Assembly (NCBI GenBank): GCA_027082955.1
Contig: JALWTA010000036.1
Span: 1 to 43,104 of the forward strand
Reading direction: 5' to 3'
From: Sulfurovum sp.
GTDB lineage: Bacteria; Campylobacterota; Campylobacteria; Campylobacterales; Sulfurovaceae
DNA length: 43,104 nt
Part shown: positions 3,677 through 39,133 of the stretch, in pieces
How the letters are laid out: each line of letters opens with the position of its first letter
Position numbering within the stretch: the stretch's first letter is position 1
The notes under the pieces: model-generated
The model's database searches: none
The model's input: the letters and a program-made list of their open reading frames with translations, nothing else
What the model was told of the DNA's origin: nothing
Program-made: the position numbers and the translations under genes

Positions 3677-4471
3677 AAAGGCAAGCAGCGAAGCAGTCAC
3701 CGCCACATTGAGCGACTCTACCCCTCTGTTCATAGGAATGGCGATGCTCTCATTACAGAGTGATTCAACCTTTTTGCTAACCCCTTCACTCTCATTCCCC
3801 AACACAAAGATCGTCTTATTACCGTAGTACTGTTCTTTGTAGTTTTTCTTTGCGTGCGAAGAGAGTGTATAAAGATCAGCTCCCTTCTCTTTGAAATGGT
3901 GCAGTGTTTTTGAAAGGTCGGAGGTTTTGATAATGGGCATTTTAAAGAGGGTGCCTACACTTGCCTTGATGACCAGAGGGCTAATCTGTGCAGCTCCCTT
4001 GGTCGGAAGGATGATCGCATCGATGTTGCCTGCCGCTGCAGAGCGGATGATCATGCCGAGATTTTGCGGATTGGTGATCCTGTCAAGCGCAAGTATGCGA
4101 TAACTGTCATATTTGGAGAGAAAATCCTCTTCATTTCCAAAATGCTCCAGCACAATGTCCAGCGCCACCCCCTGATCCTGTCTAGCATTTTTGGAGATGC
4201 GTGAGAGTGCCTGCTTGTCATGGTATGCCACCTCAATACCACGCTTTTTGGCGATGGCTTCCATCTGCTTTAAAACCGGTGCAGGTTTGTTGGACTTGGA
4301 GAAGTGGAGTTTGTGGACAGTTACAGAAGGATCTCCCAACGCTTCAAGCACCGCATTGCGTCCGTAGATCGTCAGGACTTTTTCAAAAAATTTTTTCTTC
4401 TCAAGATATTCGGTACTGTCGTGCTGAGAGCGTTTAGCGTTTAGCGCTGAGCGCTGAGGGAGTTTAGGCAT
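3668..4471 (-). CDS. rlmB: 23S rRNA 2'-O-methyltransferase, SpoU/TrmH family (RlmB-like)
   Basis: A 267-residue SPOUT methyltransferase with an N-terminal substrate-binding domain (IYGRNAVLEAL onward) and a C-terminal catalytic knot. The three SpoU motifs are visible: DRITNPQNLGMIIRSA, FVLGNESEGVSK and IPMNRGVESLNVAVTASL. RlmB methylates G2251 in the peptidyl-transferase loop in E. coli; the exact target here is an inference. The start ATG at 4471 lies inside the last codons of the upstream four-helix-bundle gene (8-bp overlap). Oddity: the first ~35 residues precede the usual start of the family, and residues 6-15 are encoded by a 7-bp tandem repeat (4429-4456). The N-terminus therefore looks captured from a repeat/cassette insertion. 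Confidence 0.88.
   Translation of the reverse strand: MPKLPQRSALNAKRSQHDSTEYLEKKKFFEKVLTIYGRNAVLEALGDPSVTVHKLHFSKSNKPAPVLKQMEAIAKKRGIEVAYHDKQALSRISKNARQDQGVALDIVLEHFGNEEDFLSKYDSYRILALDRITNPQNLGMIIRSAAAGNIDAIILPTKGAAQISPLVIKASVGTLFKMPIIKTSDLSKTLHHFKEKGADLYTLSSHAKKNYKEQYYGNKTIFVLGNESEGVSKKVESLCNESIAIPMNRGVESLNVAVTASLLAFLD
4429..4456. repeat. Heptamer tract, 4 x 7 bp, inside the rlmB 5' end
   Basis: On the plus strand it reads AGCGTTT twice, then AGCGCTG twice, 28 bp exactly. The first 16 bp are a perfect reverse complement of 4822-4837. It is translated on the minus strand as RlmB residues 6-15. Confidence 0.85.
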
Positions 4472-4802
4472 AGTTTCTCTTTAATCCAATAAGCATTCTT
4501 GCAACTTCATTAATCTCTTTAATCCACTGTAGCCCTACTTCTTTTTCTATATATCCAATCTCAATACCGATATAAATTTGCGTAATAAGCTCAGCGGTTG
4601 ATCCTCGTGCTATTTCAATAAAACGTACTTTTTCTTTGTTAGACTCTTTTTCGATACCCTCTGCAATGTTACTTGCAACCGAAAGTGAACTTCTCGTAAT
4701 CTGATCTTTAAAACCAAAGTCTTTACATTCAGCAAAGTATCGGTACACCTCTACACTTAGGCGGCAACTTCTTTTCCATACATCAAGCCGTTCACAACGC
4801 AT
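4464..4802 (-). CDS. Four-helix-bundle protein (S23 / rRNA intervening-sequence protein family)
   Basis: This 112-residue all-helical protein matches the family first found in intervening sequences of 23S rRNA genes, also related to the accessory Avd protein of diversity-generating retroelements. Family hallmarks seen are LDVWKRSCRLSVEVYR near the N-terminus, DQITRSSLSVASNIAEG in the middle and ARGSTAELITQ further on. The start ATG 4802 has AAGGGG upstream. The gene overlaps rlmB by 8 bp. It is bracketed by heptamer tracts whose inner 16 bp form perfect inverted repeats (4429-4444 and 4822-4837), making a ~409-bp unit that resembles a small mobile cassette. No rRNA or retroelement lies nearby. 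The molecular function of solitary members is unknown; nucleic-acid binding is a reasonable guess from the basic surface of characterised relatives. Confidence 0.85.
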   Translation of the reverse strand: MRCERLDVWKRSCRLSVEVYRYFAECKDFGFKDQITRSSLSVASNIAEGIEKESNKEKVRFIEIARGSTAELITQIYIGIEIGYIEKEVGLQWIKEINEVARMLIGLKRNYA

Positions 4803-4814
4803 AAGTAACCCCTT

Positions 4815-4870
4815 CTAATCACTAAACGCTAAACGCTTAATACTTCACTATTAACCCTTCACTCTTCACT
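4815..4870. repeat. Heptamer tract, 8 x 7 bp, between fabI and the four-helix gene
   Basis: Eight consecutive 7-bp units in one register: CTAATCA, CTAAACG twice, CTTAATA, CTTCACT, ATTAACC, CTTCACT twice (56 bp). Positions 4822-4837 are the right arm of the inverted repeat around the four-helix-bundle gene. The tract fills most of the fabI/four-helix gap. Confidence 0.85.
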
Positions 4871-4890
4871 TCGAAGTAGGCGTACAACGT

Positions 4891-5745
<855 letters not shown>

Positions 5746-5805: not shown

Positions 5806-6303
5806 ATGATGCACGAAATACTTATTATCAATACCGGCGGTACCTTTAACAAACGCTACAATCCCATCAGTGGTGAGCTGGAGGTAGACAAGGAGGGACA
5901 GGCACTGAAAACGCTGGCAGAGAAATGGATGCACCCCTTTGAGGTACTTAACATCATAGGCAAAGACTCACTTGAGATGACGAGTCATGACCGGCTGGAA
6001 CTGCTTGCTACCATCCATCAAAGCAAGCAGCGCAAAATCATTGTCATTCATGGTACCGACACCATGGATGTCACTGCTGCCTACCTTGCCGATGCAGAGA
6101 TAGAAAAGCAGATTGTCCTCACAGGTGCCATGGTACCCTTCAGTATCGATCCGACAGAAGCGACTGCCAATTTTGCTTCTGCTTGTACTGCTCTTCAGTA
6201 CCTGGATGAAAACGGTATTTTCGTTGCCATGCATGGTCATATTGCCCCGTACGAGAAAATGAAAAAAGACCGAACCAAGGGGGTTTTTATACGTTTGGAC
6301 TAA
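5806..6303 (+). CDS. Single-domain asparaginase-like protein
   Basis: This 165-residue protein corresponds only to the N-terminal catalytic domain of bacterial L-asparaginases (~330 residues). TGGT at 10-13 carries the nucleophile threonine, and HGTDT at 82-86 carries the Thr-Asp pair. A lysine-rich stretch near the C-terminus (EKMKKDRTK) could supply the catalytic lysine. The C-terminal domain, which completes the active site of the neighbouring subunit in classical enzymes, is absent. It is not a frameshift product: the stop at 6303 is followed after 2 bp by the end of hemF on the other strand. The start is ATG 5806 with AAGAGA upstream. Amide hydrolysis is possible but unproven; the real substrate is unknown. 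Confidence 0.8.
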   Translation: MMHEILIINTGGTFNKRYNPISGELEVDKEGQALKTLAEKWMHPFEVLNIIGKDSLEMTSHDRLELLATIHQSKQRKIIVIHGTDTMDVTAAYLADAEIEKQIVLTGAMVPFSIDPTEATANFASACTALQYLDENGIFVAMHGHIAPYEKMKKDRTKGVFIRLD

Positions 6304-23650: not shown

Positions 23651-23653
23651 AAA

Positions 23654-23681
23654 AATTAAAAATTAAAAGTTAAAAGTTAAA
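23654..23681. repeat. Heptamer tract, 4 x 7 bp, between aspS and adk
   Basis: AATTAAA twice then AGTTAAA twice, 28 bp exactly. It begins 3 bp after the aspS stop and abuts the adk Shine-Dalgarno (AAAGGAA). It is the same period and length as the tracts at 4429 and 36711 but has a different unit. Confidence 0.75.
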
Positions 23682-36614: not shown

Positions 36615-36669
36615 GTTCCCACGCGGAGCATGGGAACAAGAGCAAACGGTGTTGTCAGGGGACAACACC
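36615..36669. repeat. REP-like pair of hairpins
   Basis: Hairpin 1 has arms GTTCCCA (36615-36621) and TGGGAAC (36631-36637) around CGCGGAGCA, a motif familiar from intergenic repeats in many proteobacteria. Hairpin 2 has perfect 9-bp arms GGTGTTGTC (36648-36656) and GACAACACC (36661-36669) with loop AGGG. Both lie in the 205-bp gap inside the MMPL/LolA-like/DUF1302 operon and may attenuate or process the transcript. Confidence 0.7.
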
Positions 36670-36710
36670 CTACAGTAAATCAAAGCTTTCCAAAGGAAAG
36701 CATACCAAAA

Positions 36711-36738
36711 CTATTCACTATTCACTCTTCACTCTTAA
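36711..36738. repeat. Heptamer tract, 4 x 7 bp, across the MMPL stop codon
   Basis: CTATTCA twice, CTCTTCA, CTCTTAA: 28 bp exactly. It encodes the last residues of the MMPL protein and its stop (36722), so the repeat sets the C-terminus. Confidence 0.75.
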
Positions 36739-39133
36739 TCCCGTCAATCCACCCTCGTTTTGCCGCAACGATCATCAATGAAGGTGCCAAAAGAAGATCT
36801 GCCAGCAGCGCAAAGATGATCACAGTACCGGTCAACAGTCCAAAATTGTGCACCGATATCATCTGTGCCATCATATAGGCATAGAAGCCCAAAGAGAGTA
36901 CTACCGAAGTGATCACCATCGCTTTCCCTGTCGTAAAGAAAGTATGCCTGATCGCTTCAGCACTGTCTTTTGTCTTGGCATAATAACGCATGAAGTTATG
37001 CATAAAATGAATTGTATCATCTACCGCAAGCCCGATTGCAATACTGCCGATAAGCAGTGTAAACATATCCAGAGGGATACCAAAAAGAACCATGATAAGC
37101 AAACCGAGAATGATCGGTGTCAGATTGGGTACCATACTTAGAAGACCGATACGTACAGACCGCAGGATCAGCATCATCATCAGTGTGATCAGAGTAAATG
37201 CAGCAATATAGCTTTTGACTGCCGAGCGGATTGCCTGGCTGAATGTCGTTACCATCAGCGGTACCACACCGGTAACGGAAACATTGTCATCGGGGAATGT
37301 CTTTTTTACTTCCTGATTGATATAGGCAAGTACACCTGTAGCCTTGATCGAATCTACCCATGGTACTTTGATTGTGATACGTACTTTGGAGAACTGGCTG
37401 TCTACCACATCTTCGAGGTCATCACTGCCTGAATTTTCAAACAGCAACAGTTCCTGGGCAAGCAGATCCTTCCCTTTTGGTATGGTGTAGTAGCGCTCAT
37501 CATTGCTGTGCAGTGCACGGTTTGTCTCTTTGACGATCGTATTGAGAGAAACTGCCTTCCCGACAAAAACATACGGGTCTCTGTACTGTTCCAGTCTTGC
37601 TGTCAGACGGTCAAGCTTTTGCATACGGACAGGGTCGGTCCAGCCATTCTCTTTTCCGGTATCGATCACTGCTTCAATGGTCAATGATCCATGCATAATA
37701 CCGTCAATTTTCTCGGTGGAGAGTCGAACAGATTTGTCAGGTTTGAACCAGTGCAGCGGATTGTGCGAAAGTTCTATGGTCGAACCTGCCCATAGTGCCG
37801 CAGCAACCAACACTGCACTCAGTGCAATGATACTGCGGTAGTGTTTTACCGGTACTTCTGCTAATCGTGCCATCATGCGGTCAAGCTTTCCGGGTGCTTT
37901 GTTCTTTTTGGGTTTCAAACGGGTAATGACCAAAAGTGCTGGCAGCAGTGTCAGGGTTAAAAAAAGCGACACCATAACACCAAAAGAGGCGAATATCCCC
38001 AGATCACTGATAGGAGCGACCTCACTTCCGGCAAATGAACCGATACCGATGGCTGTCGTAACAGAGGTCATAGCAATGGCAAGTCCAGAATGTCCCAATG
38101 TGTGGGAAACTGCATCTTTTTTGTCACCCGTCTCATTGAAACGGTCAAAAAAGATAGAAAGCACGTGTACTGTCGCACCGACACTTACCGCCAAAAGCAG
38201 CGACGGTACAATCTGTGTCGGCAGCTTGAACGCTGTACCTGTCCACGCCATCAATCCGACAGTCGAAAGGAGTGCCAAAATAACAACGATCAGCGGATAG
38301 ACCACAGCCGAGATACGGCGGAACATCAAAAAGAGGAATACAATTACGATCAGAAGGGTAATACGTGTAAACTTCTGCATATCACTGCGCATCTGTGTTT
38401 TCAGTACATCCAGAACGACAGGAGAACCCGCTACATAGATCTCAAGACCTTTTTTTCGGTATTTTTTGACAATCTCATACACTTTTTTAACGATTTTGGC
38501 ATTCTCCTCATCAGTCAAAAATTTTTGAGGTACCGAGGGAGCCGCTGTACCACTGTCCCCTTCAAAGCCGGCATCGATATCACTCTCTGCGTTTTCACCT
38601 TCATGGGAAAAGGCATCGGTCTCGATAACAATGGTGGTCATCTTGCCGTCTTGGGAGATGAACAGGTCTTTATAGAAATGTGATGCCAATGCCCTTTTTT
38701 TAATGGCATCTACCTCTTGCTGTGTTTTCGGAAATGGCTCCAAAAGATCATCGGTCAATAACTGATCGCCCTTGCCGCGTGTGTTTCTCACATTATAGAG
38801 CGATGTGACATCATCGAGATAAGGCACGTTGTTTTCTATCTCTTCATGCAAATCTCTGAGCGTTTTTAAAAAATCAAGTGTAAATATGTTGTCACTTTTG
38901 ATCGCGATCGCAATCCGTTCATCCCTTCCAAACTGCTCTCTGAAACGGTTATAGCTTATGAGTATCGGATCATCTTTGTGAAAGAATCCTTCGTTGGAGG
39001 TATCGAATTTGATTTGCGGTACATGTGAAATCGGTATAATGACCAGCAAAAGTGCCAGTATGATTGTCTTTATTGGATGGTCGGCGATCCAGCTTCCCAT
39101 CTTTCTCATGCTATTCTCTAATTTTTGATGCAT
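36722..39133 (-). CDS. MMPL/RND-superfamily exporter
   Basis: An 803-residue inner-membrane transporter with two homologous halves, each with a large periplasmic loop and a block of membrane helices. TM1 is near residues 18-36, followed by a periplasmic domain to ~255. The second half carries GLAVDDTIHFMHNFM with an Asp pair like the proton relay of RND proteins; the first half has SVGATVHVLSIFF at that place, without acids. The size fits MMPL/HpnN-like exporters of lipids, hopanoids or other hydrophobes. ATG 39133 has GGGGAG 6 bases upstream. It is the first gene of a three-gene operon with the LolA-like and DUF1302 genes. Substrate unknown. Confidence 0.87.
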   Translation of the reverse strand: MHQKLENSMRKMGSWIADHPIKTIILALLLVIIPISHVPQIKFDTSNEGFFHKDDPILISYNRFREQFGRDERIAIAIKSDNIFTLDFLKTLRDLHEEIENNVPYLDDVTSLYNVRNTRGKGDQLLTDDLLEPFPKTQQEVDAIKKRALASHFYKDLFISQDGKMTTIVIETDAFSHEGENAESDIDAGFEGDSGTAAPSVPQKFLTDEENAKIVKKVYEIVKKYRKKGLEIYVAGSPVVLDVLKTQMRSDMQKFTRITLLIVIVFLFLMFRRISAVVYPLIVVILALLSTVGLMAWTGTAFKLPTQIVPSLLLAVSVGATVHVLSIFFDRFNETGDKKDAVSHTLGHSGLAIAMTSVTTAIGIGSFAGSEVAPISDLGIFASFGVMVSLFLTLTLLPALLVITRLKPKKNKAPGKLDRMMARLAEVPVKHYRSIIALSAVLVAAALWAGSTIELSHNPLHWFKPDKSVRLSTEKIDGIMHGSLTIEAVIDTGKENGWTDPVRMQKLDRLTARLEQYRDPYVFVGKAVSLNTIVKETNRALHSNDERYYTIPKGKDLLAQELLLFENSGSDDLEDVVDSQFSKVRITIKVPWVDSIKATGVLAYINQEVKKTFPDDNVSVTGVVPLMVTTFSQAIRSAVKSYIAAFTLITLMMMLILRSVRIGLLSMVPNLTPIILGLLIMVLFGIPLDMFTLLIGSIAIGLAVDDTIHFMHNFMRYYAKTKDSAEAIRHTFFTTGKAMVITSVVLSLGFYAYMMAQMISVHNFGLLTGTVIIFALLADLLLAPSLMIVAAKRGWIDGIKSEE

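Follow-up and report, generated by a model that had tools for sequence, protein, structure and literature searches.

S23 genes between inverted heptamer tracts at the fabI–rlmB junction of a Sulfurovum genome and at other bacterial loci

The closest described counterparts of the locus studied here are the intervening sequences (IVSs) of rRNA genes. In Coxiella burnetii the IVS ends in 28-bp inverted repeats and contains GACAGAT units, three to four of them depending on the strain, and the stems of rRNA IVSs are cut by RNase III (PMC4990558); IVP ORFs have also been found in 16S and 23S insertions of CPR bacteria (PMC11270868). A cassette between fabI and rlmB of Sulfurovum sp. similarly holds an S23/IVP ORF between inverted repeats, and in Coxiella the GACAGAT heptamers lie beside the ORF. 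However, the Sulfurovum cassette is located outside rRNA, and the known accounts of IVSs omit heptamer arms as a general feature.

Heptamer repeats of other kinds are on record. Those of Xanthomonas (GGGAATC) and Nostoc (GGGGAYT) are intergenic and mostly of four units, and in Xanthomonas they often form convergent inverted pairs near an upstream ORF (PMC4692102). They share these traits with the elements described here, and Xcc encodes an S23 protein, Xcc0516 (2gsc), but there is one unit per genome, the repeats are discussed as G-quadruplex elements, and that account draws no connection to S23 (PMC4692102). The TAACTGA direct repeats of Beggiatoaceae, of obscure origin and with a proposed mobile or regulatory role, are also intergenic heptamer tandem repeats, but have one fixed sequence and almost no inverted pairs, and have not been connected with S23 (PMC4679880). 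REP/BIME elements with RAYT (PMC2817692) are likewise short intergenic hairpin repeats, solo or in inverted pairs; unlike these, the S23-type elements have a heptamer tract instead of a GTAG foot, and RAYT is dispensable. A similarity between PF05635 and Avd has been pointed out (PMC10053308). A literature search, which covered few subscription papers and no preprints, gave no report tying S23 outside rRNA to heptamer arms, and nowhere in it were heptamer repeats tied to S23.

The cassette between fabI and rlmB

The window is the whole stretch of 43,104 nt that was analysed. An earlier note on this DNA had described perfect 16-bp inverted repeats, part of heptamer tracts, around a single S23/IVP-family gene, with no transposase between them, and had asked whether this was a minimal inserted cassette. 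The features of the region are as follows.

4427–4471, minus strand: new 5′ end of rlmB, about 15 codons from the element, with its ATG overlapping the S23 stop
4429–4444, minus strand: downstream 16-nt perfect inverted-repeat segment, AGCGTTTAGCGTTTAG
4429–4458, minus strand: downstream heptamer arm, of the reverse complement class of the upstream arm, corresponding to RlmB residues 5–15
4464–4802, minus strand: S23/IVP (four helix bundle) gene, 112 aa, identified by PF05635, TIGR02436 and AF2/Foldseek
4815–4870, minus strand: upstream heptamer arm, found by a tandem-tract scan (period 7)
4822–4837, minus strand: upstream 16-nt perfect inverted-repeat segment, CTAAACGCTAAACGCT
4871–4899, minus strand: boundary hairpin, made of the fabI end TCGAAGTA and an inverted copy TACTTCGA

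The description was confirmed in its main points: the two 16-nt segments are exact reverse complements, both lie within longer, degenerate heptamer tracts, and the S23 gene is the only gene between them, the cassette encoding no transposase or recombinase. The S23 product matches PF05635 (E = 4.5e-33, 114.1 bits against a curated cut-off of 33.8) and TIGR02436 (E = 2.8e-31, 107.9 bits against 24). Its AF2 model (pLDDT 96) matches Xcc0516 (2gsc) with TM up to 0.94, and also BT_0352 (2rld). Read on the minus strand, the upstream arm is AGTGAAG AGTGAAG GGTTAAT AGTGAAG TATTA AGCGTTT AGCGTTT AGTGATT AG.

Under a first-order Markov model, an average of 0.025 perfect pairs (at least 16 bp, start-to-start distance up to 600) is expected in the window. 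A second perfect pair, of 17 bp, is present at 5481–5497 and 5961–5977, between fabI and the next, opposite-strand gene, both coding; it is probably a coincidence despite the low expectation, and the 16-bp match is therefore not decisive on its own. What is decisive for the reality of the repeats is that the window scan found four period-7 tandem tracts, with periods 5, 6, 8 and 9 yielding none, together with the matched inverted heptamer flanks at 126 of 155 S23 loci (see below). The repeats at 4429–4444 and 4822–4837 are real and belong to a larger structure.

The S23 stop and the rlmB start overlap (ATGCCTAA), and RlmB is shorter in relatives with an empty site, where it starts with M-KDSPEYL or similar, equivalent to residue 16 onwards in the window. 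This agrees with the earlier proposal that the insertion replaced the native rlmB start, but the RlmB extension is about 15 residues by this comparison, instead of about 35. The arm is translated as part of RlmB, as had been noted, although not as residues 6–15: the exact arm covers residues 10–15 and the whole tract residues 5–15. Arms are translated into host protein ends in RlmB (MPKLPQRSALNAKRSQ), MurI (MKSSSIIHFPSSIQT) and TilS (MLTLLPPTSYLLPKK) at L002, L005, L006 and in relatives, and an arm also provides the new C-terminus of the gene preceding tilS.

The cassette is present at fabI–rlmB in G000, G002, G016 and G024, and is frameshifted in G036. It is missing in about ten other relatives, in which fabI ends 6–14 nt before rlmB, while G009 and G015 have lost the S23 gene and keep its 3′ end or an arm as the rlmB start. 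Six further S23 sites have empty counterparts in G003, G019, G029 or G015, with gaps mostly of 10–60 nt, giving seven S23 loci with empty sites in total. As judged from these genome comparisons, the cassette is an insertion, because relatives have empty sites; the contrary expectation, an arrangement conserved across distant genera with no empty sites, fails for the same reason. In the close clade the rlmB-site cassette is passed on vertically, and two species (G009, G015) have lost it. Most copies at orthologous sites are vertically inherited. At a site downstream of hemE, different species carry S23 genes of two subfamilies (39–40% identical), so either this site was occupied at least twice or one gene took the place of another. 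No transposition event was seen in the between-species comparisons, and no target duplication was defined from empty sites compared between diverged species.

The inverted copy in the boundary hairpin is missing at empty sites, and varies with fabI in G002, G009, G016, G024 and G036. The hairpins at fabI and ispG have the same make-up, with the host gene's end forming the outer half and an inverted copy, which empty sites lack, forming the inner half. A hairpin (stem score of at least 7) adjoins the tract in 40% of 48 elements, compared with 1.1% of 178 control positions.

Heptamer arms at S23 loci in the genome, its relatives and other phyla

The genome of the window (2.1 Mb in 48 contigs) has eight PF05635 genes, and each of the eight has a heptamer tract on its upstream side and the reverse complement of that tract on its downstream side. 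The heptamer differs at almost every site, examples of the units being AGCGTTT, AGGATTA, AGTGGGT, AGAGTGA, GATTGAT, GAAGTAG, GAATTAG and one degenerate tract. Thus, of the suggestion that other copies would be found in the same flanking arms, the part that holds is that seven further S23 genes have arms of the same kind; their sequence is site-specific and both sides are rewritten together, so the other copies do not share the arms of the window cassette, and these are not the fixed repeats of one transposon.

To score this match, the upstream flank of a locus was locally aligned with the downstream flank of that locus in reverse complement. The genomes used are in part metagenome assemblies, and arm scores vary with the thresholds chosen. 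For 78 intact S23 loci assembled from 60 genomes of relatives, the mean arm score was 17.6 at the own locus against 9.0 with flanks taken from other loci, 8.4 when flanks were compared in direct orientation and 8.0 after shuffling; 138 other ORFs gave 8.1, with a maximum of 12.5. The left/right match exceeded the control 95th percentile at 65 of the 78 loci. Identity at lag 7 (best 28-nt window) was 0.79 upstream and 0.83 downstream, and close to 0.5 at all remaining lags except 14. Constant terminal repeats across copies, as in transposons or MITEs, were not found, the arms matching at 17.6 within a locus and 9.0 between loci. To our knowledge, flanking repeats that are locus-specific, matched within the locus and jointly rewritten fit no known transposon class.

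The same pattern was seen in about ten other phyla (Bacteroidota, Acidobacteriota, Clostridia, SAR324, Verrucomicrobiota, Desulfobacterota-type, Nitrospirota, Planctomycetes, candidate phyla, Gammaproteobacteria and others). For these loci, which were chosen by conserved S23 motifs, the arm score was 17.1 compared with 8.5 in shifted controls; 61 of 77 loci exceeded the control 95th percentile, and lag-7 identity was 0.70 against 0.50. Matched arms are absent at about one fifth of the S23 loci examined. After phase alignment, the unit consensus is approximately NNNYTAG, with G at 92–98%, A at 73–82% and low information elsewhere, mirrored downstream. The AG anchor is looser in the relatives than in the loci of other phyla, and the remaining bases of the heptamer are locus-specific. 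Heptamer arrays of 15–22 or more units lie beside S23 in Geobacter, Faecalibacter and Thiodictyon (L205, L237, L259). S23 has the orientation of both neighbours at 64 of 70 and 49 of 57 loci, and ortholog pairs show purifying selection (dN/dS 0.03–0.29).

Species have different heptamers at orthologous sites, and left and right arms change together. At the tilS site, for example, one species or another carries GGAGGTA-, GGAAGTA-, GAGAAAT- or GAGCAGT-like units. When right arms were permuted among orthologs 5000 times, the null values averaged 892 and reached at most 1018, below the observed 1157 (p < 2e-4).

One S23 locus lies within rRNA. In G075, a related genome, S23 is present in three identical copies, and the locus (L318) matches 23S rRNA (Rfam RF02541) over its whole length; the ORF is flanked by CGGAATACAGATTACAGAATACAGATTACAGAGTTTAAAG and its near reverse complement, which are AGNNTAC heptamers on both sides. 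Short motifs gave no convincing case of S23 inside rRNA among 80 cross-phylum loci, apart from one stray motif (L213). With this 23S copy and the Coxiella IVS both having heptamers, S23-bearing rRNA IVSs look like the rRNA-located members of one class that includes the intergenic S23 cassettes. The window cassette has the S23 ORF between complementary termini and works like an IVS, yet it is not an rRNA IVS because it is sited between fabI and rlmB.

Gene-less heptamer elements

Heptamer tracts without an S23 gene are also found in the window.

23651–23681, plus strand: solo heptamer tract, four AAAATTA/AAAGTTA units, just before a start codon at about 23691
36678–36739, minus strand: gene-less element with AGAGTGA / ATAGTGA heptamers and the head GGTATGCTTTCCTTTGGAAAGCTTTGATT

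The headed repeat consists of about four heptamers, AGTTNT and a hairpin head (GGTATGC..GCTTTTATT), and the heptamer stretch preceding the head is most often 34 nt. Counted by pattern alone, the own genome has 16 gene-less headed copies, against none for the reversed control. Of 43 headed elements, about one third lie no more than 560 bp from an inverted partner that matches; an S23 gene lies between the partners in L004, L024 and L099, and most pairs are without one. An orthologous element (L114/L176/L179) has ATAGTGA, AGAGTGA or AAATTAA as its left heptamer across three species. A folE-like gene has a headed element upstream in five species (L161, L163, L170, L177, L120), the units of which shift in concert (AGAGTGA, ATAGTGA, AATAATG-like). 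GTAG-type REP elements (GTAGGGTGCGTNNTCACGCACC, GTAGGGTGTTGTCCCCTGACAACACC), which are a separate repeat family sometimes inside or beside heptamer elements, occur in the window at 36620–36675 (minus strand) and at L108, L115, L117 and L001.

Headed repeats occur in 12 of 37 genomes of the genus, and S23 in 11 of the 12 with heads compared with 10 of the 25 without (Fisher p = 0.004). Among 298 genomes, S23 is present in 18 of 23 that are heptamer-rich and 20 of 275 others (p = 2.5e-14, a value inflated by genome relatedness). Many heptamers and no S23 were found in G062, G266 and G308. The pattern has 49 hits in G062; the same-genus G269, with 38 hits, has only broken S23 fragments, as if S23 had been lost after the repeats spread.

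Origin of the arms

The observations suggest a single type of insertion element that is widespread and has gone largely unrecognised. The cassette is probably of the IVS type but outside rRNA, an S23 gene with no transposase of its own between inverted heptamer tracts. The gene would travel with an inverted tract on either side, each of about four AG-anchored heptamers, and would be placed co-directionally between host operon genes and transcribed with the operon; the same unit inserted in 23S rRNA would be the so-called S23-bearing rRNA IVS. The arms may be homogenised at the DNA level: slippage would act within a tract, and the inverted arms would be matched to each other through template switching or conversion. 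S23, an Avd-like protein, might bind the heptamer strand and help to spread the arms using host enzymes, in cis and, for gene-less copies, also in trans. Transcribed arms could pair like the RNase III stems of rRNA IVSs, making the insertion less harmful to the host operon. We infer from these patterns that the cassette is mobile and that S23 has a role in making or using the arms, although we know of no catalytic activity of S23. A wider reading can be offered tentatively, as possible but short of an even chance: a new class of minimal mobile element across phyla, in which S23 and host enzymes would make AG-anchored arms, with two near-constant anchor bases and five variable ones fixed per locus, and would add an inverted copy of the host flank upon insertion. 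S23-bearing rRNA IVSs, the intergenic S23 cassettes and the so far unexplained dispersed heptamers known from several bacteria would then be products of one activity.

If the arms were instead an RNA-processing stem under selection, an mRNA stem cut by RNase III or insulating the S23 message, then S23 could be a domesticated RNA-binding protein whose movement is rare or past. RNase III cuts rRNA IVSs in such stems (PMC4990558), S23 runs in the direction of its operon and evolves under purifying selection, and the boundary hairpins keep pairing even where the end of the host gene has changed. If a sense-RNA stem were selected, an excess of G-U-compatible mismatches would be expected, but no such excess was found, and the bias between left and right arms (transition mismatches, sense strand) is the opposite, with 52 of G-U type against 110 of A-C type in relatives and 69 against 99 in other phyla. 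A conserved sense-RNA stem is therefore not an obvious cause of arm matching. Folded as RNA, the whole cassette is no more stable than shuffled sequences (z = +1.0), unpartnered gene-less solo tracts are frequent, and the 7-nt unit with its AG anchor is left unaccounted for, so that this explanation is unlikely. The mismatches favour A on the left and G on the right (reverse complement), which fits G-T pairing on the antisense rather than the sense strand. For the matching of the arms we prefer conversion or template switching at the DNA level, although simple conversion does not account for the A-C excess and the direction of this bias is left unexplained.

Passive residence, with independent REP- or MITE-like heptamers moved by another enzyme (e.g., RAYT) and S23 tolerated or captured, would suit the headed gene-less elements, which outnumber S23 cassettes and are often paired, and many of these genomes have GTAG-type REPs and Y1 transposases. 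However, arms of this kind surround S23 in about ten phyla, so capture would need to be near-universal; no single recognisable sequence is common to the arms of different loci; and G020 and G034 (99–100% complete), both with S23 and heads, have no Y1_Tnp match. A GTAG/GGAG foot beside a palindrome, as in REP/BIME, was not found either, the arms and heads differing in sequence. We regard this explanation as improbable. A relative of the diversity-generating retroelements (DGRs), in which S23, as an Avd homologue, would partner a trans-acting reverse transcriptase and the arms would derive from cDNA, draws on the likeness of the S23 fold to Avd, which partners DGR reverse transcriptases, a likeness more distant than the matches above (4dwl, TM 0.74–0.78; 8ubb/8ube, 0.80–0.81, query-normalised), and on the similarity reported in PMC10053308; the match of the window S23 to Avd is by fold, with none by sequence profile. 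It is very improbable, as RVT_1 (PF00078) is matched in none of seven S23-rich genomes, the own one included (G000, G014, G016, G020, G024, G030 and G034, with 3–9 S23 genes each), and no template/variable repeat pair was seen. Being absent from several S23-rich, near-complete genomes, RAYT and reverse transcriptase are not required for S23 cassettes. A phase-variable inversion cassette, in which the arms flip S23 on and off, would explain a single gene between inverted repeats, but can hardly be upheld when the orientation of S23 is nearly fixed relative to both neighbours and the cassette encodes no recombinase.

An IVS-type insertion element with heptamer arms would join three loose ends, namely where S23-bearing rRNA IVSs come from, what the very widespread 'four helix bundle protein' family does, and how dispersed heptamers arose. 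Whether IVSs move, and whether S23 helps them to do so, is now directly testable in culturable bacteria.
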